Source: an uncultured Christensenellaceae bacterium
Lineage (GTDB): Bacteria > Bacillota > Clostridia > Christensenellales > UBA3700
Direction of reading: 5' to 3'
NCBI GenBank assembly: GCA_944383895.1
Contig: CALWRH010000013.1
Coordinates: 1 to 55,847, forward strand
Length of the DNA: 55,847 nt
This document shows positions 16,779 to 55,847 of the stretch, one piece after another; the stretch's first letter is position 1, and the number at the start of each line of letters is the position of its first letter. The notes under the pieces were generated by a model. It ran no database searches. It was not told where the DNA came from and was given only the letters and a program-made list of their open reading frames with translations. Position numbers and translations under genes: made by a program.

Positions 16779-16831
16779 AATAAACATATAGGCTTTCCCG
16801 CCTATCGCGGCGGGAGAGTCGGGAAGAAGAG

Positions 16832-18001
16832 ATGGACATAACATTATTAGGCGGTTTGAACCAAGGCTTGCTTTGGGCAGTCATGGCAATAGGCGTGTTT
16901 ATCACGTTCAAGTTGCTCGATTTCGCGGATCTTACCTGCGAGGGAAGTTTTTCTCTCGGCGGCGCGGTCGCTGCGATCATGATGCAGAATAACGGTTGGG
17001 ACGGCATTTCGGTATGTTTTATCGCACTGCTTGCAGGTGCGGCCGCAGGACTCGTTACCGCACTTTTGCATACTAAACTCAAGATAGCTCCGATACTTTC
17101 GGGTATTATAACGTTGACGGGATTGTATTCGGTAACGCTTATCACGATGGAAGGCAAATCTTCGGTCGCGCTTATCAACGTTCCCGTGTTCTATAAGTTT
17201 TTAGAGATGAAATCTCTTTATTCTACGCTCATCATGGGACTTATCTGCGTGGTAGCTCTTATAGGCGCTTGTTATTGGTTTTTCGGTACCGAGATCGGCA
17301 GCGCGCTGCGTGCTACGGGCGCAAACGAAAAGATGTGCCGCGCGCAGGGTATCAATACCGACAATACCAAGATAATAGGTCTTATGCTTTCCAACGCGCT
17401 GATAGCTTTGTCGGGTGCGCTTGTCGCGCAATCTCAGGGAGCAACGAGCTGGTCTATGGGACAGGGCGCGATAGTTGCAGGTCTTGCCGCGGTCATTATC
17501 GGCGAAGTGCTGATACCTGCAAAGAGCAATTTTGCAGTAACGCTTACGGGAGTAGTGATAGGCAGTATAATTTACCGTATAATTTACGCGCTTGTCTATT
17601 ACGTTGGTATGCCGACAGAGCTCATAAAGCTCAGCACTGCTATACTTGTCGTCATAGCTCTGTGCTTGCCTATGATAAAGAGCAAGACGCTTGCGTTTGC
17701 AAAGATGGCGGACAGATATCTGATTTCAAAGTATCCGAAGTATGCCGAATATGCAGAAAAGAGAGATGCAAAGAAGGCTGCCGCGAAAGAGCGCAGGAAA
17801 CAGGCGTCTTTAGACAAGATAAAGTCGCTTACGGAGCAACTCAGCACATGCACCGACGAAAAGACGGTCAGAAAACTGCACAATGCTCTTGTGAGAGAAA
17901 AAGAGAAATTCACTGAAAAATACGGTTCTAAGGAACTTGAAGAAACAGAACAAAACAGCGAGGCGTTGGCAGCTGCCGCAGTCGGAGGTGAGGACAAATG
18001 A
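16832..18001 (+). CDS. ABC importer permease, TrpY type, with charged C-terminal extension
   Basis: 389 residues. Residues 1-290 form a BPD_transp_2 permease with 8-9 hydrophobic segments; the conserved LLDFADLTCEGSFSLGGA start and the GTEIGSALRATGANEKMCRAQGI coupling region are typical of this family. Residues 290-389 are a highly charged K/E/A-rich tail, probably a cytoplasmic coiled coil, ending in E-E-T-E-Q-N; family members generally stop soon after the last membrane helix, so this tail is unusual. The stop overlaps the ATPase start by ATGA, implying translational coupling. Confidence 0.88.
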   Translation: MDITLLGGLNQGLLWAVMAIGVFITFKLLDFADLTCEGSFSLGGAVAAIMMQNNGWDGISVCFIALLAGAAAGLVTALLHTKLKIAPILSGIITLTGLYSVTLITMEGKSSVALINVPVFYKFLEMKSLYSTLIMGLICVVALIGACYWFFGTEIGSALRATGANEKMCRAQGINTDNTKIIGLMLSNALIALSGALVAQSQGATSWSMGQGAIVAGLAAVIIGEVLIPAKSNFAVTLTGVVIGSIIYRIIYALVYYVGMPTELIKLSTAILVVIALCLPMIKSKTLAFAKMADRYLISKYPKYAEYAEKRDAKKAAAKERRKQASLDKIKSLTEQLSTCTDEKTVRKLHNALVREKEKFTEKYGSKELEETEQNSEALAAAAVGGEDK

Positions 18002-18780
18002 CGATGCTCAGTCTTAAGAACGTGTCCAAGACCTTCAATATGGGCACGGTAAACGAAAAGAAGGCAATAATCAACTTGTCGCTCGACGTAGAAGAAGGCG
18101 ACTTCATAACCGTAATAGGCGGCAACGGCGCAGGTAAATCCACGCTGCTCAACCTGATTGCAGGCGTATATCTTCCCGAGCAGGGTACTATCGAGCTTGA
18201 CGGACAGAACGTTACGCGTCTTAAAGAATTCAAGCGCGCTAAATATCTCGGCAGAGTTTTTCAGGATCCTATGATGGGTACGGCGGCGAATATGGAGATT
18301 CAGGAAAATCTCGCGCTCGCCTATCGCAGAGGAAAGTTCAGAGGTCTGTCGTGGGGCGTTACGCGTAAAGACAAGATACAGTTCAAAAGTCAGCTCAAGA
18401 TATTGGGACTCGGGCTCGAAGACAGGATGACGGCAAAGGTAGGTCTGCTTTCGGGCGGACAAAGACAGGCGCTCACGCTGCTCATGGCGACGATGAAAAA
18501 GCCCAAGGTCCTTTTGCTCGACGAGCATACAGCGGCACTCGATCCCAAGACGGCGGAAAAGGTGCTTTCGGTAACAGAAGAGCTTACGTCGATGAACAAT
18601 CTGACGACGATAATGATAACTCACAACATGAAAGACGCTATACGTTACGGCAACCGTCTTATCATGATGAACGAGGGCAATATCATTTACGACGTCCGCG
18701 GAGAAGAGAAGAAGAATCTGACAGTTGCTCAACTGCTTGAAAAGTTCAAGATAGAGAGCGACAAAATGCTGATGATATGA
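17998..18780 (+). CDS. ABC importer ATP-binding protein, TrpZ type
   Basis: 260 residues, a single nucleotide-binding domain. Walker A is GGNGAGKST (about residues 41-49), the Q-loop is GRVFQDPMMGTA, the signature is LSGGQRQALTLL, Walker B is VLLLDEHTAALD, and the H-loop is MITHNM. MMGTAANMEIQENLALAYRRG is characteristic of the ATPase of TrpX-type importers. It powers uptake through the permease encoded just upstream, with which its ORF overlaps by 4 bases, and closes the operon before a hairpin at 18786. Confidence 0.93.
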   Translation: MTMLSLKNVSKTFNMGTVNEKKAIINLSLDVEEGDFITVIGGNGAGKSTLLNLIAGVYLPEQGTIELDGQNVTRLKEFKRAKYLGRVFQDPMMGTAANMEIQENLALAYRRGKFRGLSWGVTRKDKIQFKSQLKILGLGLEDRMTAKVGLLSGGQRQALTLLMATMKKPKVLLLDEHTAALDPKTAEKVLSVTEELTSMNNLTTIMITHNMKDAIRYGNRLIMMNEGNIIYDVRGEEKKNLTVAQLLEKFKIESDKMLMI

Positions 18781-18785
18781 AATAC

Positions 18786-18810
18786 GCCGCGGCTTGCCGC
18801 GGCATTTTCT
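18786..18810 (+). terminator. Terminator after the ABC importer operon
   Basis: GCCGCGGC (18786-18793), TT, GCCGCGGC (18796-18803) forms a very stable stem, followed by ATTTTCTTT, a moderate U-tract. Confidence 0.65.
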
Positions 18811-18936
18811 TTGACAGGATAACCGCGTTTTTCTGCTGAATAGTTTAGTGTAAGCATTATAGCGGAGCAGGAAAACCGCATACGGCGACAATAGATTCAT
18901 GCGGCTGCGGCACGATGCAGCGTATAAGGAGAGAAT
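18811..18936 (+). promoter_or_regulatory. luxS leader region with inverted repeats
   Basis: A TTGACA at 18811-18816 follows the terminator but has no convincing -10 at 16-18 bases. Before the gene, CCGCAT pairs with ATGCGG and CTGC with GCAG, so the leader can fold, and an AAGGAG-type site (AAGGAGAG) precedes the ATG. No SAM or SAH riboswitch consensus was seen. Confidence 0.3.
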
Positions 18937-19413
18937 ATGGAAAAGATAGCAAGCTTTTGTATAGATCACACGAGATTGCTCCCCGGACTTTATCTGTCGA
19001 GGCAGGACAGGTGCGGGGATTGCGTCGTGTCTACTTTCGATATAAGGATAACCGCGCCAAACAGAGAGCCCGTCATCGATCAGCCCGCGCTGCATACGAT
19101 AGAGCATCTTGCCGCGACGTGGCTGAGAAATTGCGAGATAAAGGACAGGATAGTATATTTCGGACCTATGGGATGCAGGACGGGATGTTATCTGCTCGTG
19201 TTCGGGGATTGCAAGCCTGAGGAGATAGAGAAATACGTTTCGGGCGCATTCGGATTCATAGTGAATTACGAGGGAGATATCCCCGGGGCGAAAGAAGACG
19301 AGTGCGGCAATTATCTCGAGCAGAATCTCGGTATGGCAAAGTATTACGCAAAAAAATATCTTGAAGAACTGAGAAAGAACAAGAGATTCGTTTATCCCGT
19401 AAAAGGAGATTGA
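18937..19413 (+). CDS. luxS: S-ribosylhomocysteine lyase
   Basis: 158 residues, the usual LuxS length. The metal ligands are in place: H53 and H57 in HTIEH with the catalytic E56, and C122 in DECGNY. The catalytic C80 is in GPMGCRTG. The enzyme splits S-ribosylhomocysteine into homocysteine and DPD, the precursor of autoinducer-2, in the activated-methyl cycle. No pfs/mtnN or methionine-synthesis gene is adjacent, so it stands alone here. An AAGGAG-type site precedes the ATG and a GC-rich hairpin follows the gene. Confidence 0.97.
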   Translation: MEKIASFCIDHTRLLPGLYLSRQDRCGDCVVSTFDIRITAPNREPVIDQPALHTIEHLAATWLRNCEIKDRIVYFGPMGCRTGCYLLVFGDCKPEEIEKYVSGAFGFIVNYEGDIPGAKEDECGNYLEQNLGMAKYYAKKYLEELRKNKRFVYPVKGD

Positions 19414-19469
19414 GTCGGGAGCATAGAAAAACCATTGATTTCATGACAAAAGACATATCAATACATGGC

Positions 19470-19501
19470 TGCCGCGGCATAAAATCGCCGCGGCATTGTT
19501 T
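19470..19501 (+). terminator. Hairpin after luxS
   Basis: TGCCGCGGC (19470-19478) and GCCGCGGCA (19487-19495), a perfect 9-bp stem followed by TTGTTT. An outer pair GACATA/TATGTC (19452-19457 and 19501-19506) can extend it. The U-tract is weak. Confidence 0.6.
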
Positions 19502-19828
19502 ATGTCGGAAGTATATGGAAAAATAAAAGTCTTGCGATTTTACCTATATGATTTTATTCGTGCAAAACACATTTTTTGTCGCACCATATATACAAGAAAA
19601 AGGAATTCTGACGATAGCTGCCGCGGATTGTTATAATAAGCTTTTATAAACACGGATACATAAAAAATTGCCGAATACGAAGAGTATGGTCTGCCCGTCT
19701 GACAGATTTCTTGGGTTTGTTTTATATATCGGGTTTTTCTTTACATTTATGCGCTTGAAATTGCTGTAAAAGGAAAAATTATGTACAAAACGGGCGTTTT
19801 CTTACGACTTAATTTTACCTTAATTCCG
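19502..19828. other. AT-rich intergenic stretch, no gene seen
   Basis: About 330 bases between the luxS hairpin and the promoter of the large lipoprotein gene. Frequent stops in all frames, no ribosome binding site plus ATG pair, no tRNA, no convincing repeat. Confidence 0.5.
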
Positions 19829-19857
19829 TTGATTTTACAAAATTTTTATAATATAAT
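19829..19857 (+). promoter_or_regulatory. Promoter of the large InlB-repeat lipoprotein gene
   Basis: TTGATT (19829-19834), 17 bases, TATAAT (19852-19857). The start near 19864 gives a leader of about 90 bases. Confidence 0.75.
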
Positions 19858-19892
19858 ATATAAGATTAAAATGAGGACCTGGATATTCTGGA

Positions 19893-19933
19893 TGCGGCGC
19901 AGAAGTTGTAAGGGGTAACTGCAAGGCGTCGCA
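19893..19933 (+). promoter_or_regulatory. Stem-loop in the leader of the large lipoprotein gene
   Basis: TGCGGCGC (19893-19900) pairs with GCGTCGCA (19926-19933) with one G-T wobble, enclosing an AGTT/AACT inner stem and a GGGG-containing loop. The AAGGAG site of the gene lies a few bases beyond. It has no U-tract, so it is not a terminator; I could not match it to a known riboswitch. Confidence 0.4.
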
Positions 19934-19954
19934 AAGCTGTATAAGGAGCAGGAT

Positions 19955-22900
19955 ATGAAAAAGATTTTTTCCGTTTTATTGGTGATCGCGATCGCGCTGG
20001 CGGCAGCGTTTTCGTTGTTGGCATGCGAAACCAAGGTGCAGGAAGGCGGTGACGGCGGCGGCGTTATCGATACGTCGACGGGCATAAACGCCGTGTATTG
20101 GGAAGGTTACAGCGTCAATGTCAAAGAGGAGGACTACAAGTCGCTTTTCGCCTCTGTGCCCGAAAGAGAGGGCTACGTATTCGGCGGCTGGTATTTCGAC
20201 CAGAACATCTGGGAGCTCCCTGCTGACTACAATTCTGTCGTAAACGCAGAGGACGGCACCGTCCTTTACGCAAGATGGCTCAATATGAACGAAGTCGTAA
20301 AAGTCACTTTCTACGACTGGTCGGATGCTCTCGTGCTTTACAGCGCGTATTTCCCGATAGGCAGCAATCTCAACGGATACATAACCGCGTCGGATAAACC
20401 GTCCGACGAACAGTACGAATATTTCTTTGCGGGCTGGGACAAATCGCTCGCCAACGTTACCGAGGACACGGAAGTCCGTCCCGTATACGATGCAAGACTC
20501 AGAACGTTTGACGTTTCGTTTATTGTTGACGGAGTCGTGATAAAGACGGAGAGCGTGGAATACGGCAAGGCGGCTACCGCTCCGTCCGATCAGGCGATAG
20601 ACGCGGCGTTGCCCGATGTCAAAGGCAGCGTTTATTCTTTCGAAGGCTGGGACAAGGACTTTTCCTGCATAAAGTCGGATACCGAGGTTTATGCCGATAT
20701 TTCAGTAGAGCGCATGACGTGCACCGTTACTTTCAATTACGGTGACGGAGAGAGCGTAACGCAGACCGTTAAATACGGAGAAGACGCTGTTGCGCCTACC
20801 AACGAAAACGGTCAGCTCGATAAAGCTCCTTCTGCGGATACAGAATATCTGTTCGTAGGATGGGACAACAATTATTGCTACGTTACCGAAGACAGAGTCA
20901 TAAACGCCGTGTACAATAACAACGTCAGATATTATACCGTCGATTACTATGACGGCGACGTGTTGTATTGCAGGAGATACGTTCCGCTGGGCGGTAGTGC
21001 GGAAGAGCCCGAGTCCGATCCCGTAAAGAGTCCGGACGAGAGTTTCGATTATAAATTTGTCGGCTGGAGCGAGAGCGCGGTAAACGTTACCGAAGATCTC
21101 GTGATAAATTCGGTTTACGAAAGCAGTCCCAGACAGTATACCGTTTCCTTCTACGTCAACGGTTACAAATATGCCGAAAGGACGACGAGTTACGGCGGAA
21201 GCGTTGTCGCTCCCAACTATACGCCCGAATCCGACGAGCAGTATATCAGAGAATTCAAAGGCTGGGACGGCTCTCTCGAAAACATTACGTCAGACGTAAA
21301 AGTCAATGCCGTTATTTCGGAGAAAAAACGTGAATACAAAGTCACTTTCATGTACGGTATAGATAACGTTTACGATACTTACACCTGCACCGTCCGTTAC
21401 GGAGAGGGAGCCAACGCACCCTCTGTCGGCGACAGATTTTCCGAGATCGAAGACGAGCAGTACCATTACGTTTTTACGGGCTGGAACAAGGATTTCTCCT
21501 GCATCACGGGAGAGCTTACGGTGGTCGCGACTTATGACGCGATTGTCAGGGTATATGCGGTAGACTTTGTGGACGAAGACGGCAACAGGCTCGTAGAAAC
21601 GCAGTACGTCGCTTACGGTTCGTCCGCGACGGAGCCTACGGAAGAGCAGGTCGCCAAGGCGAGCGACGCGCAGTATGATTACACTTTCGCAGGCTGGGAC
21701 AAAGAGGATTGGCAACAGGTAAAAGGCACGCTTACCATCACCGCTATTTACGAAAAAACGGTCAGACGTTACGACGTGGTGTTCGTTGCTAAGGACGAGG
21801 CGGGAAAAGACGTGGTTTATAAGAGCAATCTTGCTTACGGCGATACCGTGCAGTTGCCCGAAACCGTCGGAAGTTACAGCGACGAAAAATACGATTATAC
21901 CTTCAAAGGCTGGAATACTCAGGAGGGCGCGACCGTAGTCGGAGAGATCAACGAGGTTGCGGAATACGAAAAGACCCTCAGAAAATTCACGGTAACTTTC
22001 AATTACGGCGACGGACTCAGCGACTTGCAGGAGATAGAATACGGATCCGCGGCTGTTGAGCCGAGTAGCGGACTCGAGAAAAGCCCGACTGCGGAATACG
22101 AGTACATCTTCAAGGGCTGGGACAGCTCCAATTGGCTCAACGTTACTCAGGATATCACGGTGAACGCGGTATATATCGCGGTAGACAACTATCACGAGGT
22201 GAACTTCGTGGCGGAAGACGGCGTAACTCTTCTGTACGCGACGCAGTACGTCAGATACGGCAAGGATACCGCAAAACAGCCCGATGCGGCGGATATGGTC
22301 AAGACTTCTACGGCTGAATTCGATTACGTCTTTGACGGCTGGACTTACGATAACGGCGAAGGAGAGCAAACTTTCGTCGCGCTTGCGGATATGGATGCGC
22401 TCTGTGCCGCGATAGACAGGGACTATACTTTTACCGTCCATTTTGCGGAAAAGGTCAGGAGCTACGACGTGACTTTCCTTGACGACGACGGAACGGAGAT
22501 AAAGAGCGTGTCGGAAGAATACGGCACCGTGCTTTTGGATATCGCTCCCGAAAATCCGTCAAAAGCTTCAACGGCGCAATATACCTACACTTTTTCTCAT
22601 TGGGCAAAAGAAGACGGAGCGGCAGCGGATATGTCCGATACCGTGCAGGGAAATACAGTGCTCAGCGCGGTTTATGACGCGACGGTCAACAAATATACGG
22701 TGACTTTCGTCTACGGCGACGGCAAGACGAGCGTGCAGGAAGTAGAGTACGGCGCAAGTGCGAAAGAGCCTTCCGCCGAAGAGGCTCAGAAACCTTCCAC
22801 AGCTACGACGGGATACATATTCCAGGGTTGGGACAACGCAAATTGGCTCAACGTTACCTGTGATATGACGATAAACGCGGTATATCTCGAGATAGAGATC

Positions 22901-44018: not shown

Positions 44019-45623
44019 ATGAATAGAAAAATATTGTGTATTTTAGCTGTACTTATGTTTATCGTGCTCATATTTTCTTTTACTGCATGTTTCAACACTT
44101 TGGAAACTCAAAAGTCGCAGGACGACGAAAATACGGGAGACGATAGCGGAGATACAAGTGACGATGACGAAGAAATATATTGTACGGTGACGCTTGTAGA
44201 TAACATGAGCGATAAACCGACAAATTTGATCGAAATAAAAAAAGGTAACAAACTTTCGGAAATATCTCTTAAGGATAGCGAAGACTACTTTTTTGTCGGA
44301 TGGTACATAGACGAAAACTTTACTCAGCCGTACGATTTCGCTGCTCCCGTAGAAAGCGATTTTACTCTATATGCAAAATGGCTGAAGAAACAGGACGTAG
44401 AACTTTATACAAACAATACGTTATATCTGTGCAAAGACGGGACAGCCGATCTGTCCGACGTTCTTCCGGGCAGCGGATATGTTGCTTACGGAAATATGGC
44501 TACGATAACGGGCAGTCTGATTACGCTTTCGGGAGTAGGCAGATTTACGTTAAGATATACTCCGTCGGGTAGTACGGGCACGACAGACGTTACCGTAAAC
44601 GTAATAAACGGACAAAACGCAGGCGATTGGAGTGAACTCGTATCTGCGATCAATGCCGGTAAAAACGTTGCGCTATACAGAGATATAACCGCACCTGTCG
44701 GTGCTGATACGGTCGCAATAACGAATTCTGTAATTTACGGCAACGCAAAAGAAATAGTCGTCAATAATATCGTAAAGGGAGATATTGACAACCGTGGGAA
44801 AAACGCCTTTGACGTTTCCGGGAACGGAAAAGCATATTTCTACGACACTATAATAAGCGGATACAAGAGTGAAGAGAGCGAAATTTCTGATCTTACGCAA
44901 TTTGACGGATACGGTCAACTGATAAACGTTGTCAACAACGACAATAATCTTCGTCCCGACGTATTGGTAAAACACTGTATTTTGCAGAACGGGCAGAAGA
45001 TGATGTATGTCAAAGGAGCGAACGTAGTTGTCGAGGGCAGCGTTTTCAGAAACGGCTCTGACGCATTGCTTGCGATAGAAACCGGCAACGTAAAAGGCGC
45101 AAACGTAATGGTGAAGAATTCGGTGTTCAGCAATTCGAGATTTTTCGGTATTTGTCTTTGTAGCTGGGAAGACATTGTTGACGATTCTTATTACTGTTCG
45201 CTGAATTTTGACGGTTTTGTCGATATATACAATTGGAAAGAAAGGTATGCAGAGAACTCTATACCTCCTTCAATCGGAAACAGTATGGTAATAGAGATCA
45301 TCAACGATCTGATAAAAGGAGAAGCAGCAAAAGATAAATATGATGAGTTTTACGCTAAAGATTCTGACGGCAACGAGTATTTCCATTTCGGGCTATTGAT
45401 CGTTGCAACGGGTAAATTTGATGCAGACAAACTTGTCATCAACGGAGCAGAAAACGTAGGATTGGAAATAAAGAACTTACCGCTTCCCAGCATGATTAGT
45501 GCATTGATAAAAACATGTATGGTTTACGGAATAGTAAACGGAGATTTAACGATAGAGCCGACAGAGAAAATAAAAGATAATCCTTTGCTGAGTCAGGAAC
45601 TTATCTACGGCAGAGTGCAGTAA
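44019..45623 (+). CDS. Surface lipoprotein with one InlB-type repeat and a beta-helix-like domain
   Basis: 534 residues. The signal peptide ends with F-T-A-C (cysteine near 25), then an acidic D/E/G spacer. Residues 50-125 form one Flg_new/InlB B-repeat (FVGWYIDENFTQPYDF, then TLYAKW). From about residue 220 on, short turns with repeated N, G and V (ITNSVIYGNAKEIVVNNIVKG, then FRNGSD and MVKNSVFSNSRF) suggest a right-handed parallel beta-helix. Probably a cell-surface adhesin or glycan-binding protein. The ribosome binding site is AAAGGGG. It is the last gene before the composition changes. Confidence 0.82.
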   Translation: MNRKILCILAVLMFIVLIFSFTACFNTLETQKSQDDENTGDDSGDTSDDDEEIYCTVTLVDNMSDKPTNLIEIKKGNKLSEISLKDSEDYFFVGWYIDENFTQPYDFAAPVESDFTLYAKWLKKQDVELYTNNTLYLCKDGTADLSDVLPGSGYVAYGNMATITGSLITLSGVGRFTLRYTPSGSTGTTDVTVNVINGQNAGDWSELVSAINAGKNVALYRDITAPVGADTVAITNSVIYGNAKEIVVNNIVKGDIDNRGKNAFDVSGNGKAYFYDTIISGYKSEESEISDLTQFDGYGQLINVVNNDNNLRPDVLVKHCILQNGQKMMYVKGANVVVEGSVFRNGSDALLAIETGNVKGANVMVKNSVFSNSRFFGICLCSWEDIVDDSYYCSLNFDGFVDIYNWKERYAENSIPPSIGNSMVIEIINDLIKGEAAKDKYDEFYAKDSDGNEYFHFGLLIVATGKFDADKLVINGAENVGLEIKNLPLPSMISALIKTCMVYGIVNGDLTIEPTEKIKDNPLLSQELIYGRVQ

Positions 45624-46156: not shown

Positions 46157-48277
46157 ATGGATTTAATTGGAATCAGCATATTAAATTATAAATCAATAAA
46201 AAAAGCAATTTATTTAGAAATGCCGAAGGAGAAAGGAGTAATAACTTTTATAGGTAAAAACGGCTCCGGAAAAACCAATCTTTTACAAGCAATAAAAAGG
46301 ATATTGCTAAAATCAGATTATTTGGGAGAAAAATCTCCGATTGAAGGAAAATACGTTTTGTCGATTTCGGAAAAAGAAAAGCAGGAGTATTTTTCCGCAA
46401 TAGATTTCAATAAGATTTCTGATAAAATAGAAGTAAGTTTTTCCGCAAAAGAGCCGAACGTTAAAAAAGTCGTTGTTCCTCCGATTAAAATAGTTGTAAA
46501 GAAGTATAAAGAAAAGTTAACAAAAATAATTAAAGAATTAAAGAAAGCAAGTCGATCTTATATTGAAGATTTGCAAAAGATAGAGATGTCTTACAGTAAA
46601 AGACAGTTGATAGGATTGAAAGTTTCTGATAAGAACGGAAGCATAAGTTATATTGATAAAAACAGGATAGAAGATGTCTGTGATAGGGTGGAAAAGCAAA
46701 TTAAAGAGATCAATAAGTTCTTGAATGAAAATTTTGAAAAAGATAATATTATTTTTGAAGAACACAAGGTTTATTATGATTCCCCGTATCTGACGCCAAT
46801 ACAGTTTTATCAAATAGAGGAAGAAGATATTTCGTTCAGCCCGATAATCGCCGATATTTTAAAATTGGATGCGGCAGGCATTGAGGAAATTAACCGTAAA
46901 TTAAGACAAGAAATTCATAAAATAAACAGCTTGCTCAATCAAGACTATGAAAAAATTAGAAAGTGCCTGGCATCTTTTGAAGAAATACAACAGGAAATGA
47001 AAAGACTTTTCTTTGAAAAAGAAGAGCAATATTATGAACAAGCAGAGGAAATAGAGGAAAAATACAATAAATTTTGTTTGTCGGTAAAAGATGCTATTTT
47101 TAGAACAGGATATTTCATTGACAATGAAACATCGTTGTTATTTTATCAGCAAGATAGTTTTTCTGTTTCGAGAAGAATTGATTTCATTTACGAAAGAAAT
47201 CCAATTATTTTGGCTATTCATAACTTTTTAAATAATTCAAATCTATATAAACAAAATGAATCTGTTTTGGAAATCAATAAAATTTCTTTAACAAGATTAA
47301 AAATACTTGAAAAGGCAGTAAACGATGTTTTTCTGAAAAGTTTGGTGGCGAATTTCGACAAACGCGAGATTAACGGGTTTGAAACGGAATTTACCGATAA
47401 AGGGATAAATCTTTTTGTTTTGGAAAAAACCGGAGAAAGGGTAGATTTTAATTTGACAAGCTTAGGCAGAAGATGGTATTTGACATATAGTTTCATTAAA
47501 AATGTTATAAAATCGGGGGAAGTGTTGTTTATTGATGAACCGGCAGCATTTTTGCATCCTGAGGCACAAATTGAGTTTAGAGAAGATTTAGAAAATTTGA
47601 CGCAAAAAGGGGTATTAGTCTTTATCACTACACATAGTCCGTATATGATTCCTGATAATTGGAATTACGTTTTTAATGTTAATATGACGAGTCAAGGGAC
47701 ACAATTATTATCGTTTAAAGACGAAACTGATTTGTGTCAAACTATTAATACGGAACTTGGTATATCAAGGACTAACGATATTTTATTTAATTTATCTAAA
47801 ACGATATTATTTGTAGAAGGAATTTCTGATGAGACGTGTATAAAAAAATTTGCAAGTAAATTAGGATATGATTTGTCAGATTATTATGTGTTTACTTGTC
47901 ATGGTTCGTCAATTTTAGCATTGGCATATTTGTGTATAAAACAAAATATCAAATTTAAAGCTTTGCTTGACAGAGATAATAAGAATAAAAATGAAGAGTG
48001 GTTAAATTATCATCGCGGCTATGACGAATACATAAAAATAGTTACAGAAAATGAAAACTGTGTTTTTACTCCAGAAAAAGGTAAAGAAGGAAGTCTTGAG
48101 GACTGTTTTGCCGAAGAAGATAAAAGAAGATATTTCTATGAAAAGGCTTATTCTAACGGGAATAAAAAGATGAAGATAGGTTACAGAGAGGTGGAAGACG
48201 GAGAAGTATTTACGCTAGAGACGTTAAATAATTTTGATAATATATTATCTGATCTTAAAATACCGAAAATGAAATAA
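46157..48277 (+). CDS. OLD-family ATPase/TOPRIM nuclease
   Basis: 706 residues. An SMC/RecF-like ATPase with Walker A GKNGSGKTN (33-41) and Walker B VLFIDEPAAFLHPEAQ (D460, E461), split by a long helical coiled-coil section (about 100-330). The C-terminal TOPRIM domain shows E554 in FVEGISDE and the D605-x-D607 pair in LLDRD, the metal-binding set of OLD nucleases. By family such proteins are ATP-regulated DNA nucleases of anti-phage systems, either alone or with a helicase as in Gabija; no UvrD-like helicase is adjacent. GGGGGA precedes the ATG. Codon use is AT-rich, unlike genes before 45.6 kb. A 128-base gap with a separate promoter divides it from the next operon, so it may or may not be part of the same system. 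Confidence 0.88.
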   Translation: MDLIGISILNYKSIKKAIYLEMPKEKGVITFIGKNGSGKTNLLQAIKRILLKSDYLGEKSPIEGKYVLSISEKEKQEYFSAIDFNKISDKIEVSFSAKEPNVKKVVVPPIKIVVKKYKEKLTKIIKELKKASRSYIEDLQKIEMSYSKRQLIGLKVSDKNGSISYIDKNRIEDVCDRVEKQIKEINKFLNENFEKDNIIFEEHKVYYDSPYLTPIQFYQIEEEDISFSPIIADILKLDAAGIEEINRKLRQEIHKINSLLNQDYEKIRKCLASFEEIQQEMKRLFFEKEEQYYEQAEEIEEKYNKFCLSVKDAIFRTGYFIDNETSLLFYQQDSFSVSRRIDFIYERNPIILAIHNFLNNSNLYKQNESVLEINKISLTRLKILEKAVNDVFLKSLVANFDKREINGFETEFTDKGINLFVLEKTGERVDFNLTSLGRRWYLTYSFIKNVIKSGEVLFIDEPAAFLHPEAQIEFREDLENLTQKGVLVFITTHSPYMIPDNWNYVFNVNMTSQGTQLLSFKDETDLCQTINTELGISRTNDILFNLSKTILFVEGISDETCIKKFASKLGYDLSDYYVFTCHGSSILALAYLCIKQNIKFKALLDRDNKNKNEEWLNYHRGYDEYIKIVTENENCVFTPEKGKEGSLEDCFAEEDKRRYFYEKAYSNGNKKMKIGYREVEDGEVFTLETLNNFDNILSDLKIPKMK

Positions 48278-48345: not shown

Positions 48346-48374
48346 TTGAATGCTATAAATTTTTATGATATAAT
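48346..48374 (+). promoter_or_regulatory. Extended -10 promoter of the GHKL-PRTase-receiver operon
   Basis: TTGAAT (48346-48351), 17 bases, TGA-TATAAT with the hexamer at 48369-48374. The start near 48381 is 25 bases ahead of the ATG at 48406. Confidence 0.82.
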
Positions 48375-48405
48375 CATAATAGTTATAAGTTTTAGGTGTG
48401 GGGAA

Positions 48406-50850
48406 ATGGCATATAAATCAAAAGAAAAAATAAAACATATTTGTATAATTAACGTAGACGGTAAAAATAGTGCGATTTGCGAATTGCAAAAGTTGTTAGA
48501 TAGTATTATAAGTGAATATGAAAATCCTTCAAAAAACATTAATATAAATAGTGAATTTAAAAATCTACAGTTTATATTAAGAGAAATTTCTGAAATCGAT
48601 CATAACGGAGAGGTAAAGGACTATTCAGTTGATGATAATAAATATACTGAATTATTACAATTATCTCAAAATCAAGGAATTTATGATAATACAGAGACTT
48701 GGATTAAATTCCATTACAAAAGAAATATCAAAATAAAAAAGTGCGATCAGAATCATTACGATAAGAAAAAAGAGAATTTTAAAATAATTATTAATGTAGA
48801 TTATCTTCCGAATATGCAAAGTGATGAGTTTTCGGGTAAATTTAACGACCAGTGTGATCCGCTTTTCATGCAATATCTATTATTGCTAGTGCAAAAACTT
48901 AATAACAATGAATTTAATTATTTGGTTGTAGTTCGTGATAAGAGTTTGGAGAAGGAAGAACGAAATGATCATTATTTTCAGATTAGACAATCTTTGCGTG
49001 TTTATCATGAAAAATTTTCAAATATTATAGATTATTTTTTTTATGATGATGGTGACGGCATTAAGCATATGTATAGAGTAAATAATGATAATGAAGGGAA
49101 AGGAATTGAACCTGATGGAATAAACGGAAAGAAAAAGAAAGAACAAAAGGAAGAGCATTTCGGCAGGATTTTTCCTTTTATTCCTTTAACAAAAGATATA
49201 TATGGTGATTTGGTTCAAATTAAGGACAAGGATGGAAAAAGCATCAAAATTCTTAAAGACGTCTATAATGAATTTTTGCAATATATTAAAAAGGAAAGCG
49301 GGGCTGATATAGATACAGTATTTTTAACAGATAAAAATAATTCTGACAATTTGTTAACGCAACTAATATTTATTTATACGTTGTATTATATTTGTAAAAG
49401 TGAAAAAGACAGTATGGATAAACATCCGACAATGGATGAAAAGCAAAAATATAAAAATGAAATTGTAAACATTCTGAAAAACAAATTACAGATTATACAT
49501 GAGGTTTGTGTTGATTATGCAGAGGGAATTCATCAGTTAATAGAAAATGCAATAGTACACTCAATTCACAAGAGTTCAGAAAGAAGTCAGGACGGATGCG
49601 GTGTATTTACTTTGAGAATAAGAAAAAAAGAAGATAGTAAATATTTATCCGATGACGTTAAAAACGAAGACGTCTTTAAGAATACGAAATTTTTTATGGA
49701 ACTTTATGTCACGGATCTGTCTTATGTCGGGGACTATAAAGGTATAGTTGAAAAATTCAAAGAAAACGTAAAAAGACGCGATGTTAAAGGAGAGTATAAG
49801 GATAAATTTAAAGATTTAGAGTTGGTTCAGCTTTTTGGAGCTAAGCAAAGTGATGATTTAGAAGAGTATTTTAATAATGCAAAAAACATTGCTTTTCACT
49901 TTGGACTGCAAATTTTGGCAAATACTGTTGAATTGAGTAAGGGATATATGTTTGTCAGGAGCGGGAATGAAGATGAAAGACTCGGAATTGATATAAGTCA
50001 ATGTATTTATGAAAACAATAGCGAAATTTCAATTAAAGATAAAAAAAAGAAAATTGAAGAAAAGAAGAATATCTATAAGGTCTCTAATAATTTTGAATGG
50101 CATGACGGTACGGCATACATCATATATTTCCCCATCGCTTTGAGAGAAGAGATCTCAAATGTCGACATTCCGGCAGTTGAAATAAATAACGATACAAATA
50201 TGGGGCAAGACGATGAAAAAATAGTATATTTATTTAAAAACTTGTCGATTTCGGATGTACGCGAAGAAATAAGAGAAATTATGAATAAAGATATACCCAA
50301 AAAAGAAAAACTAGTTGGGATATTGAGCAAAATTTTATCAATTAATAAGTGTAAAGAAGACAAGATTCCGGTTATAGATTGCTTGCAACTGCACAAGATT
50401 ATCAAGGATTCTATCAAAAATGCTGGAAAAGAAGATTCGGGGAATGAGGTAGACAAAAAAATAACAGACATTTTGGATCAACTTTCTCAATATAACCTGT
50501 ATGAGATTTTAGCAAAGGCAATATTCCGTTTTATTGCAGAAGAGAAAGAACAGAAAAGGACAATAGCTGTTATAAATGTGGAAGACAGATATAAGGTGAT
50601 CCATTTGTTAAGGCAGTTTATGTTATTTTACAGAAGGGGCGAAAGCGAATTGATAAAATGGAAGAGTATATTTATTGTAGATAAGGAAGCTGAGTTAGAC
50701 GTTTTGCTTTTCGATTCAATTGATAGGATGGCAGAGAGTATGTATATCAGCCAGCTGACAGGTGGGCTTGACGGTAAAGCTATGGAAATAATCAGATATT
50801 TTGCAGATAGCAGAACTAACAGGGGGAAAAGTGATGTCAGACATGAATAG
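48406..50850 (+). CDS. Large protein with a predicted GHKL (histidine-kinase-type) ATPase domain
   Basis: 814 residues, not recognised as a named family. About residues 370-575 show the GHKL pattern: N-box QLIENAIVHS (E380, N381), D437 in LYVTDLS as the G1 aspartate, HFGLQI (about 498) in the G2 place, and the closing strand HDGTAYIIYFPI (about 566) as seen at the end of many GHKL domains. There is no HisKA histidine box. The N-terminal 340 residues and C-terminal 240 residues (with IAVINVEDRYKVIHLLRQF) are of unknown fold. The ATG at 48406 follows AGGTGTGGGG; the in-frame extension upstream is the promoter. Overlaps the next gene by 17 bases. By analogy a nucleotide-driven switch in a conflict system, which is inference. 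Confidence 0.7.
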   Translation: MAYKSKEKIKHICIINVDGKNSAICELQKLLDSIISEYENPSKNININSEFKNLQFILREISEIDHNGEVKDYSVDDNKYTELLQLSQNQGIYDNTETWIKFHYKRNIKIKKCDQNHYDKKKENFKIIINVDYLPNMQSDEFSGKFNDQCDPLFMQYLLLLVQKLNNNEFNYLVVVRDKSLEKEERNDHYFQIRQSLRVYHEKFSNIIDYFFYDDGDGIKHMYRVNNDNEGKGIEPDGINGKKKKEQKEEHFGRIFPFIPLTKDIYGDLVQIKDKDGKSIKILKDVYNEFLQYIKKESGADIDTVFLTDKNNSDNLLTQLIFIYTLYYICKSEKDSMDKHPTMDEKQKYKNEIVNILKNKLQIIHEVCVDYAEGIHQLIENAIVHSIHKSSERSQDGCGVFTLRIRKKEDSKYLSDDVKNEDVFKNTKFFMELYVTDLSYVGDYKGIVEKFKENVKRRDVKGEYKDKFKDLELVQLFGAKQSDDLEEYFNNAKNIAFHFGLQILANTVELSKGYMFVRSGNEDERLGIDISQCIYENNSEISIKDKKKKIEEKKNIYKVSNNFEWHDGTAYIIYFPIALREEISNVDIPAVEINNDTNMGQDDEKIVYLFKNLSISDVREEIREIMNKDIPKKEKLVGILSKILSINKCKEDKIPVIDCLQLHKIIKDSIKNAGKEDSGNEVDKKITDILDQLSQYNLYEILAKAIFRFIAEEKEQKRTIAVINVEDRYKVIHLLRQFMLFYRRGESELIKWKSIFIVDKEAELDVLLFDSIDRMAESMYISQLTGGLDGKAMEIIRYFADSRTNRGKSDVRHE

Positions 50851-53800
50851 TAGTTTGTCAACGCTTAGAAACAGGTTATACAACTTGGAAATAGGCAGCG
50901 AAAACGAAAAAGTTTGGATAAAAAAATTAAAGAATATTTTAGAAGCCGATATTCATCAGAAACCTTTGGGTTGCAAAATTAGCAATACGCACGTAAAAAT
51001 CGGAGAGGTCCATCTCGATACTTTTTACGAAGCTCAGATACTTTTTTCGCATCCGAGATGGGTGAACAGATTCGCTAATTGGTTGTATGAAAAAATCGCA
51101 GTGCCTCAAGATAAAAAAACTTTGGTCATCGGTTATGAAACTTATATTGAACCGGTGTTGGTTGCATTGAAAGATAAAGCAGCAACATCGGGCAGATCTG
51201 TCGATTATTGCTTGTACGAAGAGCCGAAATATATAAGAAGCGAAGTAAAGTCGGAGCAAAAAATAAGATATTTTGAAAAGTTTATTTTGAAAAAGAAAGA
51301 TGTTGACAAGTATAACAAAATAGTGTTTATTTGCGGTATTTCATCGACGTTAAATACTTTTATTAAAATTAAGGATAAATTTCTCGAAGAACTTGAGAAA
51401 TTCAATAAAGACTCAGGAGAAAATAACCCCCCCAAAAAAATAAGTGACAAATTGGAATATCAATATTTAAGTATCATTCACGTGTTACCGAAAACACCAG
51501 AGAACGAATCGGAAACAACACAGGAAAATGGATCCGTACTTAAAATAAGTGATTCTAAAACATTATTTTGGGAATCGGGAAAGAAGACTGCTACGTTAGA
51601 AATAGACAAGAAAAAACTAATCAAATCCCAATACCTTGTTTCGGTAAATTGCACTTGGTATCAAGCGCAAGAGTGTGAGTTGTGTTTTCCGAGTAATAAC
51701 CCTATGGAAGAACGTCCGATTATCGCTACTAGCGAAACTTCCGTTATACCGATACAGATGATCAAGCGGGATTCAGATCAATCGTCGGATAAAAATAATC
51801 GGAAGACGCCATATATCGATTTTTTCAAAAAAAAGAAAGACAGAAATTATATGTATCAGAATTATCTGTATTATAATCATATTGACAGGGAAGATCATCA
51901 TTATAAGTATTATGTCCGAACAGGCAACTTGTTTTATGATATTTATTATGGAAAAGAGTTTGAAAAAGAACGTGCCGCATTTTTGACGTTTTGTGACGAT
52001 ATAAAAAATAGTCTTGGGAATGACAATTCTAAAGAAAAAAGTGACGGCAGACAGAAGACTACTAACAATGAGACTTTTCTTGACGTAATCATTGCGCCGT
52101 CGCATTTTAGCAACGAATTGTTTCCGCATGCGATAAACAGGCACGTTTTTGGAGGTAATGCACACGTTATTGCTTTTGAGCCCAAAAAAGAATATCGTTC
52201 CAATTTTGAGACTAAGTTTTCTAATATAGAATACTTTTTGGAGCAGATCAAAACTAAAAATGATGCCGCTAAGGTTAAGGTGCGGTTCCATTATGTTGAC
52301 GATCAAATAGTTACGGGAAGTACCTTTGCGAGAGCAAAGTCATTGTTATCTTCCCTGATGCGCGGTAATTCTGAATCTTTGGCAGAAAACGTTATAATAT
52401 TCGATCAGGTCATAACTTTTGTCAGCAGAATGTCTGACAAAACGAAAAAAGATTACGTTTGCGATGACAAAAATACAAAAAAAGGCTTTAAGTATGACGT
52501 AAAGAATTACCATTCGTTTATTGATTTTGCTGTACCTTCAATAAGGAATTACGGCGATTCTTGCCCGAGTTGTAATATACGTTATAAAGCACAGGATATA
52601 CTTGAAAGCGCCGCTTTGAAAACGGTAGCAGAATATTGGAGTAAAAAGCATTACGATTACAGGGTTAAATCATTAAAAGAAGCAAAAAATGAAGCAGCAG
52701 GTAACGATGACGAAAAAAGAAGACGTCAATTTCGGCGTTTTGATTGCGAGAATGAACTTTGGACTAAGACCAAATACTGTAATACGGTTGAAGATTATAC
52801 AAAAGTATTTGCTGAATTGTTGAATAGAGGAAGTAAATCTTCCAAAGAGCATATAGAAAAGGCAATTTCCGTATTAAAAGCTATAAGCAGTCCGTTTTTA
52901 TATTATAAAGAAATTTTAAAAAAAGCTGCATTGAAAACCGTTATTGCTTTATTGCATAGTATAATAGAAGATCAAAACATATCTATCGATGAAAAGGTTT
53001 TAGGCAAAAAGATCAACATTGTGTTCAAAGACGAAGAACAAAAGGAAAAGTATAATTTTATCAACATATTGATCAATTGCTTGGCACAAATGGAATCAAC
53101 CTATATATTAAACAAAACTCGAATCAAAACTATATGCAATTTAATGAAAGCATTGAGTAACAAAAGCGGTTGGGAAAAATATTATGATGCAGACGGATAC
53201 TATACCATATTGTTGAATGCATATAAGAGAATAATATGCGGGATTGCCGGAGAACAGAAAAACGACCGATTCAGAATAGAGATTTTAAAATGTATTACTG
53301 ACGAACAACAATCTGAATATAAAGATCTGTTTGAAGCTATGTATTTGGAGAGCATATCGAAAGGGGAATCGTTTCTTCCGGAAGATGATAAGAAAAAAGA
53401 CGAGACGAGATCCGTGCTTGAAAAATATTCCGATGTTTGCACAATATTAAGCAAGCAGAGCGAAAAAATTCAAAGCGTCAAACTGTATTATAAAGATGAC
53501 AGCATGAATTGCTTAAAAGATGAAATTTGGTACATAATTGCAAGTGGTGATAATCAAGAAATAAAAGATGGGTATGTTTTGCGTAAAGAGATTGTTAACG
53601 ACGAACAACAAAAGCTACTGAATGAAATAGGATATTGTGCGGTCGGAGAGAATAAATATATTTTTGATTTGATGTTTTTTACGGATGAATATTGGAGGAA
53701 GAAGGCACAGGAGGAACAAGAGAAGAAGGCACAGGAGGAACAAAAGAAGAAGGTACAGGAGGAACAAGAGAAGAAGGTACAGGTGACAACGAATTTGAGT

Positions 53801-54691
53801 AAACCAACGCCTTATGTTGGAATCACATTTTGTGCAGAGTGTGATCTTTCAGATAAACTTGAAATAATTAGGAAGATTCTTGTAAAAAAATATGAATTGG
53901 CAAAAATGCTCAATGAGGATATAGAAAAGGGTGCAGTTAAATCGGCGATACAAGCAAGGGCATCACAGAAATTAATCAGTGAAGGCAGAGCTGTTTCACA
54001 TAATGAAAGATCAGAATTTTTGAATTCGTTAGTTGAGATAATTGTTGAAGAGGTTGATAAGACGTTGTATAAAAATTCCAACATAAATGAAACAGCAATA
54101 AGCAAAATCGAAACCTTGATAACGATATTATTTGACAATATGATTGCTTATGCTCACAATTTACTTATATTGGCTAAATTTTATGGACAAAAATTCAAGG
54201 TTGATCAGCAACCATTTAAGCGTATGCATTATCAGATGAAGGGGAAAAACCTAATAAAAGCAGTCCTTGAAAAGAATGGTTTTAACATTGAGAAATTCGA
54301 TAGTCTTAATAACGGCATAATCATGTTGGATTTAGATAATGACAAAAAAAAGATTATGGCAGAAGTGTTTTTAGTGGGTATTATATTGAAATTTAGAGAA
54401 AATGCTAAAAACCATGGTGTAAATAATCAATTATACTGTAATATTAATGCCAGGGGGGATTATATGGAAATTATATTTTCTAACGAGATAGGAGAACAAA
54501 ACAGTGTAAGAAGTAAAGGTATGACAAAAAAGTTTTTTGTTGAATTTTTGAATTTATTGGAGAAAGAGAACGGATATGAAATACAAATGTATAAAAAAGG
54601 AAAATATTTTAAATCAAAATTAAAAATATTTAATAAAAAAGAAGAAGAACAAAAATTTTCTAACATGCTTAGTGGGATTGATAAATTATAA
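50834..54691 (+). CDS. Multidomain protein: tandem phosphoribosyltransferase-like segments and C-terminal GHKL-like fold
   Basis: 1285 residues. The first PRTase-like part has LVIGYETYIEP (about 97-107) and VFICGISSTLNTF (about 165-177), where ISSTLNT sits like a PRPP loop. The second has VIIAPSHFSNELFPHAINR (about 420) and a near-canonical PRPP-binding motif VDDQIVTGSTF (488-498). A C-P-S-C (577-580) suggests a zinc site. Residues 956-980 are a short coiled-coil repeat. The C-terminal 100 residues contain FRENAKNHG (E1189, N1190) and EIIFSNEIG, reminiscent of a GHKL N-box and following strands. The start is set by GGGGG seven bases ahead of the ATG at 50834. The family is not recognised; ligand binding to PRPP or a nucleotide is plausible but the catalytic status is unknown. 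Confidence 0.65.
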   Translation: MSDMNSSLSTLRNRLYNLEIGSENEKVWIKKLKNILEADIHQKPLGCKISNTHVKIGEVHLDTFYEAQILFSHPRWVNRFANWLYEKIAVPQDKKTLVIGYETYIEPVLVALKDKAATSGRSVDYCLYEEPKYIRSEVKSEQKIRYFEKFILKKKDVDKYNKIVFICGISSTLNTFIKIKDKFLEELEKFNKDSGENNPPKKISDKLEYQYLSIIHVLPKTPENESETTQENGSVLKISDSKTLFWESGKKTATLEIDKKKLIKSQYLVSVNCTWYQAQECELCFPSNNPMEERPIIATSETSVIPIQMIKRDSDQSSDKNNRKTPYIDFFKKKKDRNYMYQNYLYYNHIDREDHHYKYYVRTGNLFYDIYYGKEFEKERAAFLTFCDDIKNSLGNDNSKEKSDGRQKTTNNETFLDVIIAPSHFSNELFPHAINRHVFGGNAHVIAFEPKKEYRSNFETKFSNIEYFLEQIKTKNDAAKVKVRFHYVDDQIVTGSTFARAKSLLSSLMRGNSESLAENVIIFDQVITFVSRMSDKTKKDYVCDDKNTKKGFKYDVKNYHSFIDFAVPSIRNYGDSCPSCNIRYKAQDILESAALKTVAEYWSKKHYDYRVKSLKEAKNEAAGNDDEKRRRQFRRFDCENELWTKTKYCNTVEDYTKVFAELLNRGSKSSKEHIEKAISVLKAISSPFLYYKEILKKAALKTVIALLHSIIEDQNISIDEKVLGKKINIVFKDEEQKEKYNFINILINCLAQMESTYILNKTRIKTICNLMKALSNKSGWEKYYDADGYYTILLNAYKRIICGIAGEQKNDRFRIEILKCITDEQQSEYKDLFEAMYLESISKGESFLPEDDKKKDETRSVLEKYSDVCTILSKQSEKIQSVKLYYKDDSMNCLKDEIWYIIASGDNQEIKDGYVLRKEIVNDEQQKLLNEIGYCAVGENKYIFDLMFFTDEYWRKKAQEEQEKKAQEEQKKKVQEEQEKKVQVTTNLSKPTPYVGITFCAECDLSDKLEIIRKILVKKYELAKMLNEDIEKGAVKSAIQARASQKLISEGRAVSHNERSEFLNSLVEIIVEEVDKTLYKNSNINETAISKIETLITILFDNMIAYAHNLLILAKFYGQKFKVDQQPFKRMHYQMKGKNLIKAVLEKNGFNIEKFDSLNNGIIMLDLDNDKKKIMAEVFLVGIILKFRENAKNHGVNNQLYCNINARGDYMEIIFSNEIGEQNSVRSKGMTKKFFVEFLNLLEKENGYEIQMYKKGKYFKSKLKIFNKKEEEQKFSNMLSGIDKL
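53705..53782 (+). repeat. Three 24-bp units encoding A/V-Q-E-E-Q-E/K-K-K
   Basis: Units at 53705, 53729 and 53753, differing at a few bases, then a partial GTACAG. The eight-residue charged unit should form an extended helix or coiled coil linking the middle of the protein to its C-terminal domains. Confidence 0.9.
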
Positions 54692-54702
54692 GGAGATTAA
54701 AC

Positions 54703-55437
54703 ATGACGAAATTAATACTTATTGATGATATGCAATCAATAAATGATTGGCAGGAAGAAGTTTTTACAAAAATTATAAACAACATCATATCAGCCGAGGA
54801 TGGAAAAAAGAAAACAGAAAAAATTGCAGTAATAAAAATTGATGCAACAGCATTGTTAAAGATGGATATTGAAAAACTGTTAAGCGGTGATGAAAAACAG
54901 TTGAGTGATGATGAAAAACAGTTAAGTGATGATGAGAAATCAGCAATCCATACGTTTGTTAAGCTTTTACCGAAAAAAGAAGATAATATTGAAGGCAAAG
55001 AAAATAATGATGACAAAGACAATTCGGTTTTTGTAATTGATTATCGTTGGAATAATTCGCCAGAGTCTGATGATAAATCGGGGCTTATTTGTGCGAAAGC
55101 GCTTGGCGAAAAATTCTCAGAAAAAAATAACATAAAAATTATCTTAGTATCATCTAAGATACATGAGGTCGACATAAAAGAAGAAAACATTATTTGGTGT
55201 AAGCGTCCTTTTTTTGAACGTACAGACAAAAATACAGTAAAACCTGACAATGGTACCACGACGGATAACGATACTGTTGTTGAAAGGCTCGAAATAAAAG
55301 ATTGGGAAAATAGCCGAGATGAAACAAAAAAACAGATATTTGCAATGTGCAGAAGCTGTTATATAAAATATCAATTTATAGGATGTGTTATGGCTTGTTG
55401 TTATAGTTTTTTAAAGAAGGAAAAGGAAGAAAAATGA
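54703..55437 (+). CDS. Receiver-like (CheY-fold) protein
   Basis: 244 residues. It reads like a receiver domain with an insertion: LILIDD gives the acidic pair D8/D9, VFVIDYRW gives the phospho-acceptor position D113, KIILVSSK gives the conserved S/T (S150/S151), and CKRPF gives the lysine K167. A long insertion (about residues 30-105) with a heptad repeat lies before the phospho-acceptor strand. No output domain is seen; residues 205-240 are Cys-rich and hydrophobic (RSCYIKYQFIGCVMACCYSF in part). AAGGAG precedes the ATG, 11 bases after the previous stop. Together with two GHKL-like folds in the same operon it suggests phospho-signalling or an adapted version of it. Confidence 0.68.
   Translation: MTKLILIDDMQSINDWQEEVFTKIINNIISAEDGKKKTEKIAVIKIDATALLKMDIEKLLSGDEKQLSDDEKQLSDDEKSAIHTFVKLLPKKEDNIEGKENNDDKDNSVFVIDYRWNNSPESDDKSGLICAKALGEKFSEKNNIKIILVSSKIHEVDIKEENIIWCKRPFFERTDKNTVKPDNGTTTDNDTVVERLEIKDWENSRDETKKQIFAMCRSCYIKYQFIGCVMACCYSFLKKEKEEK
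54877..54939 (+). repeat. Three 21-bp units encoding Q-L-S-D-D-E-K heptads
   Basis: Units at 54877, 54898 and 54919, in frame, with the first reading LLSGDEK. They form a charged heptad linker in the insertion of the receiver-like protein. Confidence 0.88.
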
Positions 55438-55847
55438 TGGATAACAAATTGTTAAATGAAGTAAAACGTAGTAATATACTTAACGGAGAAAGTGCGATTT
55501 TCATCAAACAACAAAATAATAAAGCACGACAATATTGGCACTACACATCGCTTTCAGCATTACTATCAATTTTTAAAATTAAAAAAGATCCTTGTCTGGC
55601 TCCTGATTTGACGCGTTGTGAGATGCTTGCAAGTAATATATGTTATTTAAACGACATAAAAGAATTCAACGGTGGGGTTGAAGATTTTAAGAAAATGATA
55701 GAGTGTCTCAAGAATGAACATGTCGATATGCAAAATGTAAGTGACGATTTACAAGATGTAAGCGACGATATACAAGATGTAAGCGACGATATACAAGATG
55801 TAAGCGACGATATACAAGATGTAAGCGACGATATACAAGATGTAAGC
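55434..55847 (+). CDS. DUF2971-like protein, 3' end cut off by the window
   Basis: 138 codons are visible, starting at an ATG that overlaps the stop of the receiver-like gene (ATGATG; a second ATG follows at once). QYWHYTSLSALLSIF near residue 31 and ASNICYLNDIKEFNGG near residue 70 match the HYTS and YLND-x-x-EF pattern of the DUF2971 family, which turns up often in accessory and defence regions. The visible end is a run of D-V-S-D-D-I-Q heptads that continues past the window. Function is unknown; position at the end of the operon fits an effector or partner protein, which is inference. Confidence 0.6.
   Translation, partial: MMDNKLLNEVKRSNILNGESAIFIKQQNNKARQYWHYTSLSALLSIFKIKKDPCLAPDLTRCEMLASNICYLNDIKEFNGGVEDFKKMIECLKNEHVDMQNVSDDLQDVSDDIQDVSDDIQDVSDDIQDVSDDIQDVS
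55734..55847 (+). repeat. In-frame 21-bp repeat array running off the window end
   Basis: Units at 55734, 55755, 55776, 55797 and 55818, plus nine bases of a sixth. The last four complete units are identical (GATGTAAGCGACGATATACAA would be one unit less its final base runs), the first is variant. Encodes repeated D-V-S-D-D-I-Q, probably a coiled coil. The total copy number is not known because the array continues. Confidence 0.92.

Follow-up and report, generated by a model that had tools for sequence, protein, structure and literature searches.

Organization of the locus

The window studied here, a stretch of 55,847 nucleotides, is the entire contig C13 (CALWRH010000013.1) of a genome of 1.85 Mb, 94% complete, from an uncultured Christensenellaceae bacterium. 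At its far end lie four tightly packed genes, hereafter A, B, C, and D, which all occupy the plus strand from position 48406 to position 55847 and run to the contig end. They encode, in this order, a putative GHKL-type ATPase protein, a giant protein in which tandem phosphoribosyltransferase (PRTase)-like domains precede a histidine-kinase-like end, a receiver-like protein, and a protein assigned by its relatives to the DUF2971 type (Table 1). This set is a conserved operon and, as a unit, it is most likely undescribed in the libraries and literature searched. In agreement with a preliminary description of the same DNA, the genes overlap or nearly overlap, A with B and C with D, while a gap of 11 bases separates B from C.

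The start of A, which had been placed at the TTG in position 48346, is better assigned to an ATG 60 bases downstream, the TTG belonging to the -35 element of a promoter-like site. This site had been presented as a strong promoter; it is indeed present, but such a strength is unproven, since 59 sites of this kind were counted here against 48.8 (standard deviation 7.4) in shuffled sequences, so that they are not clearly commoner than by chance. At the other extremity, the contig end cuts D within a 21-bp tandem repeat. Full-length D comprises 480 amino acids (aa) in a related locus, L012, and the first part of the window's D is 66% identical to it. In-frame tandem repeats are also found in B (24 bp, 53698-53783) and C (21 bp, 54870-54939), in addition to the one closing the contig in D (55724-55847); the latter counts about 5.9 copies in the window versus about one in the D of L012, and its copy number may therefore vary between strains.

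Table 1. Positions in the window of the operon genes and of the regions recognized within them.
Feature	Positions	Strand	Remarks
Promoter-like site TTGAAT-17-TATAAT, TG before the -10	48346..48374	+	Candidate only
Gene A, putative GHKL-type ATPase protein, 814 aa	48406..50850	+	Start ATG 48406
GHKL (Bergerat) region of A	49483..50142	+	N box LIENAIVHS, D437, HFGLQIL, GTAY; Asn, Asp, HxG, and T kept in 17/17 aligned rows
Gene B, tandem-PRTase/GHKL giant, 1282 aa	50843..54691	+	Overlaps A; 1285 aa if started at 50834
PRTase domain 1 of B (predicted)	50900..51697	+	Loop CGISSTLNT without acidic pair; CxxC (C278, C281) at domain end
PRTase-like domain 2 of B	51980..52672	+	Canonical PRPP loop VDDQIVTGSTF (52295-52327); CPxC (C574, C577)
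Histidine-kinase-like ATPase region, B C-terminus	53840..54688	+	His1053 codon 53999-54001; N-box Asn1187 54401-54403
Gene C, receiver-like, 244 aa	54703..55437	+	D8, D9, D113, K167
Gene D, DUF2971 type by its relatives, 138 aa	55434..55847	+	Predicted ADP-ribosyltransferase-like fold; gene cut by contig end

Conservation and architecture variants

The association of the four genes goes far beyond chance. Relatives numbered at least 50 for B at E <= 1e-3, at least 10 for A, and 67 for D at E <= 1e-8 with the D of L013 as query. For 10 of the 50 B clusters listed, the longest contig was identical in exact size to that of one of the 67 D clusters, whereas a control with jittered lengths gave a mean of 0.1 and a maximum of 2 such coincidences. 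Ten loci were then compared: the window, L012, L013, L014, L015, L028, L064, L029, L030, and L065. A and B are present in all of them, with an identity of B down to about 25%, and the first seven carry A-B-C-D in this order, in support of the preliminary proposal of an operon. In the three remaining loci (L029, L030, and L065, hereafter type II), A and B are accompanied by a metallophosphoesterase replacing C and D. Besides, A and B form a single polypeptide in four loci (L015, L064, L029, and L065), which makes it likely that they function together. In a tree built from 13 B sequences, several branches of which are long, a fully supported branch separates the three metallophosphoesterase loci from the others; since A+B fusions occur on both sides of it, fusion or splitting must have taken place more than once. 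Neither the fusions nor the exchange of C and D figured in the preliminary description, no more than the histidine of B and the predicted fold of D discussed below.

With regard to the spread of the system, the genomes with a raw match to a model of B numbered 6/99 among relatives, 3/391 in the class, 8/297 in the order, 2/398 in the phylum, and 5/394 in the order to which Pseudoflavonifractor sp. An44 belongs. The latter is the source of L013, where the intact operon spans about 7.7-15.6 kb. Among these, G017, G611, G684, G457, G1191, and G1221 were discarded as ordinary sensor kinases, recognized by reading of their open reading frames and matched by the C-terminus of the model, and G083 was discarded as a weak match of 66 residues. 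The counts thereby become 5/99, 2/391, 5/297, 2/398, and 3/394, the first four including the window's own genome, and the set is distributed over several families of Clostridia. The collections of viral_contigs, plasmids (query P0001), and phages (query P0049) yielded no relative of B at the sensitivities used.

The metallophosphoesterases of the three type II loci are mutually homologous (E <= 1e-38) and all display the HxSDLH, TGD, GNHD, and GHxH motifs. In L030 the enzyme extends B at its C-terminus, as a fusion; in L029 a segment of the enzyme's N-terminal half matches the B of L030 (E 1.6e-8), so that the L029 enzyme gene seems to carry a stretch which belongs to B elsewhere. Among named models, the enzyme of L065 matches DS8 best (E 5e-5, far below the cut-off) and DS9_1 weakly, as well as the candidate PDC-S60 (E 2.5e-6); for that of L029, PADLOC gave no match at E 0.01. 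By reading, an arginine-rich helix precedes the metallophosphoesterase domain (L029 6091-8358, L065 3792-6050, and B of L030 around residues 1280-1340) and resembles the helix preceding His1053 of B, the profile score being not significant (best E 0.3). Integrase-like and ArdC-like genes were also read near the operon of L030 (2398-3372 and 17124-18062), neither of which matched PADLOC; they suggest an integrative element.

Features of the four proteins

By its N-box Asn, G1 Asp, GxxL, and GT motifs, A can be classed as a GHKL-type ATPase protein. N381, D437, H498, G500, and T569 are kept in every aligned row, L501 in 16 of 17, and a separate alignment of eight loci displays the same boxes. 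Profile comparison with the HATPase_c domains of its own genome gave a suggestive score (22%, E 9e-4). None of A, B, and C has a significant match in Pfam, NCBIfam, PADLOC, or PHROGs (for A, nothing lies over the Pfam cut-off), no DNA-binding family passes the Pfam cut-off in any of the three, and searches of PDB sequences with each of them singly returned nothing useful. Residues ~600-814 of A match nothing, their best profile score being against PRTases and not significant (3.8%, E 0.011).

The motifs ISSTLNT and VDDQIVTGSTF of B, as well as D8/D9, D113, and K167 of C, are located where the preliminary description had placed them, and its idea of PRTase-like motifs in tandem holds in part. 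Domain 1 is predicted by an AlphaFold2 model to adopt a type I PRTase fold, with PurR and PyrR among the best structural matches as ranked by Foldseek, but its conserved loop lacks the Asp pair typical of a loop binding phosphoribosyl pyrophosphate (PRPP). Domain 2 does possess this loop with its acidic pair: D486 is kept in 39, and D487 and G492 in 40, of the 42 rows aligned (42 of the 50 B matches being used). In a model of 730 residues, the order of strands and helices in domain 2 resembles that of domain 1; none of the structural matches listed covered domain 2 on its own, a profile search found no PDB sequence, and profile comparison of the PRTase regions with the PRTases of the same genome gave no significant score. 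The ligand of domain 2 may be PRPP or a nucleotide akin to it, and B may be a sensor that makes or reads a nucleotide signal.

The C-terminus of B resembles HATPase_c by profile (hhalign, 90%, E 1.6e-6, versus 0.09% for REC and PRTase; 8 of 12 matches entered the HATPase_c reference and 7 of 10 loci tried the sensor-kinase profile), which points to a GHKL/HATPase_c identity. The GHKL-type domains announced for A and B are thereby both supported. On the other hand, the claim that no phospho-histidine box is present overlooked, in B, His1053, which is invariant (40 of 42 rows, the other two being gaps), though not cleanly aligned with the H box of histidine kinases. In the B of L028, this histidine was identified by reading.

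C is receiver-like, although less clearly so than first stated. By reading, each of the seven C proteins has an Asp after strand 1 and another after strand 3 (D8 and D113 in the window), while the counterpart of K167, a Lys of KRP/KP type, is found in the window, L012, and L015 only. Compared with the REC hidden Markov model, C scores above chance in three of seven loci, with 1 (window), 4 (L014), and 6 (L028) of 300 shuffles reaching the score, versus 71 (L012), 75 (L013), 78 (L015), and 102 (L064) of 300 for the others; profile comparison with REC gave no significant score.

As regards D, the DUF2971-like nature attributed to the end gene is upheld by its relatives: the proteins of L012, L013, L014, and L015 exceed the Pfam gathering score of DUF2971 (PF11185), whereas those of L028 (21.4 versus 22) and L064 (16.4 versus 22) fall below it, and the window's own cut D gave no DUF2971 match in the Pfam scan. 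The D proteins of L013 and L014 also match the PADLOC candidate PDC-S31 weakly. An AlphaFold2 model predicts an ADP-ribosyltransferase-like fold, whose structural matches include the 2'-phosphotransferase Tpt1 and DarT (PDB 7yk3, 7omy, and 7yw4). N78, D79, E82, E231, E233, and R235 are invariant (L013 numbering for E231 and E233) in an alignment of 66 of the 67 matches and five loci. The D profile found no PDB sequence, and no viral model was significantly similar to the D model in a Foldseek search. DUF2971 is named, as far as the accessible literature goes, in one paper, a genome reannotation.

Genomic setting

From about 46 kb onward the GC content of the window is 28-35%, compared to 43-56% upstream, in line with the AT-rich composition noted earlier; a gene at the edge of this stretch (44019-45620) encodes a protein in which a Listeria-Bacteroides repeat was recognized (PF09479, E 5.6e-9). 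The OLD nuclease reported next door is confirmed as an OLD-family AAA ATPase with TOPRIM, directly upstream of the operon (46157-48277; Old E 4.5e-20 and GajA E 3.6e-19 in PADLOC). It was rejected as a fifth operon member, no OLD-type gene being seen beside the operon at the other loci read, and is likely a defence gene of its own.

The suspected defence setting is supported at several loci by named neighbours. BrxC and PglX of the BREX system are found in L013, MkoC of Mokosh (E 7e-259) with PDC-S01 and PDC-M69 in L014, a fragment of LmuA of Lamassu in L015, and the candidate PDC-S15 in L064. Named defence genes (BREX, Mokosh, Lamassu, and OLD/Gabija-like) thus adjoin the operon at 4 of 10 loci, a raw count for neighbours chosen by reading for the PADLOC scan. 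A UvrD-type helicase beside L012 was not counted, because the GajB and DRT helicase models of PADLOC cannot tell it from a housekeeping UvrD, and neither was a HipA-like neighbour in L030 (PDC-M03A). On the side of L013 opposite to BREX (16589-22268), a SIR2-like gene was recognized by reading (weak LmuA/PDC-S25 match), together with a 1530-aa protein matching PDC-M54A.

Proposed mechanism and alternatives

A defence function of the operon is likely. More precisely, we give a probability of roughly 45% to an anti-phage system in which a PRTase/GHKL sensor would signal through C to D, the latter being an ADP-ribosyltransferase-like toxin. A and B would together form a sensor ATPase that would detect infection at the nucleotide level, its PRTase part reading PRPP or a nucleotide. 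A phosphate would then be handed from the kinase-like end of B to C, presumably from His1053 to Asp113, and C would in turn set D free or switch it on. By ADP-ribosylating a target in the cell, D would arrest the infected cell and halt phage growth. In type II loci, the metallophosphoesterase would take the place of the whole output arm, namely the kinase-like end, C, and D; since this effector stands beside B or is fused to it, the signal would reach it directly and no receiver would intervene. The strongest case for a relay comes from the histidine, the kinase-like end, C, and D being either all present or all absent at the loci seen.

A bolder version of this proposal remains tentative, namely that the operon represents a new immune class, in which the tandem PRTase of a histidine-kinase-like giant would sense infection by reading the collapse of PRPP or nucleotides caused by phage DNA synthesis, a His-Asp relay would fire a DUF2971 ADP-ribosyltransferase, and relatives would have rewired the same core to a metallophosphoesterase. 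If the reading is right, the operon would introduce a new sensing principle in the immunity of bacteria, in which a PRTase fold is coupled to an ATPase of kinase-like type, and would provide a predicted activity for the DUF2971 family, the metallophosphoesterase version offering a natural effector-swap comparison.

Rather than reading a nucleotide, PRTase domain 2 might make a diffusible one, D or the metallophosphoesterase being activated by binding it while C and the GHKL parts would only regulate its synthesis. Most homologs retain an intact PRPP loop in domain 2, an exchange of effectors is consistent with a common signal, and PRTases of the Ter system have been proposed as makers of nucleotide-derived signals, according to the accessible part of PMC7824862. 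We nevertheless consider this rather unlikely, as the type of effector tracks the presence of the kinase-like C-terminus of B and its histidine, which suggests protein contact, and as the metallophosphoesterase is fused to B in L030.

The resemblance of domain 1 to PurR and PyrR raises the question of whether the operon could be a stress or metabolic regulator of purine and pyrimidine supply, devoid of defence role and lodged in AT-rich accessory DNA, all the more so as 5 of 10 loci have no counted defence neighbour. The patchy presence of genuine members (5 of 297 genomes of the order, the window's included), the lack of a DNA-binding family over the Pfam cut-off in A-C, the exchangeable effectors, and the BREX, Mokosh, Lamassu, and OLD neighbours make such a role unlikely.

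The function of C may also differ from that of a phosphorelay receiver. Divergent receivers with two aspartates have, according to the available parts of PMC9503650 and PMC7824862, been reported exclusively in the vicinity of NAD/ADP-ribose or RNA-repair enzymes, with cleavage of cyclic phosphates as their predicted activity, and C could be such a cRec-like phosphoesterase acting with the ADP-ribosyltransferase-like D on products derived from NAD or ADP-ribose. The presence of Tpt1 among the structural matches of D, as well as the REC scores of C, whose weakness would fit a divergent member, go in this direction; however, according to the same parts of these sources, cRec never occurs alongside a histidine kinase, whereas C accompanies a kinase-like module with an invariant histidine, and we regard this reading as improbable. 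Finally, a mainly addiction module with D as toxin and A-C as an elaborate antitoxin, compatible with the last position of D and its predicted DarT-like fold, is very improbable, since three proteins, two of them large, would be an unusual antitoxin and since the metallophosphoesterase version retains A and B without C or D.

Comparison with known systems

The four-gene set matches no named system in the PADLOC and NCBIfam models, where only D has a weak PDC-S31 match, and it is not described in the accessible parts of PMC13092281, PMC9503650, PMC7824862, and PMC7159879, in a literature search that covered neither subscription papers nor preprints. In the figure legends of PMC13092281, PRTase appears in connection with systems that were validated, and HATPase and REC are listed with the predicted defence domains, which may or may not include the present system. 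To that extent, the view that no named system has this composition stands.

Detocs is a two-component defence system in which histidine-kinase-like and receiver-type proteins control an effector, a phosphorylase. The present operon would share this logic, but Detocs is not known to contain a PRTase, a separate GHKL partner comparable to A, or a DUF2971 protein. PurR and PyrR (PDB 1p4a, 7rmw, and 2igb) have the type I PRTase fold predicted for domain 1 of B, a fold which binds cPRPP, ppGpp, or UMP according to the titles of the PDB entries. They are small regulators, whereas B is a protein of 1282 aa that combines two PRTase-like domains with a kinase-like C-terminus. The relatives of D belong to DUF2971, and two D proteins also match PDC-S31 weakly; PDC-S31 is, as we take it from its name in the PADLOC scheme, a single-gene candidate, while DUF2971 is here the end gene of a four-gene operon. 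From DarT and Tpt1, despite the predicted fold, D differs by a sequence identity of only 8-10%. Lastly, DS-8 and DS-9, whose models the metallophosphoesterase of L065 matches weakly, are described in the available part of PMC13092281 (DefensePredictor) as anti-phage metallophosphatases, DS-8 being validated and endowed with a NACHT domain; the type II loci instead pair or fuse their enzyme with A and B.

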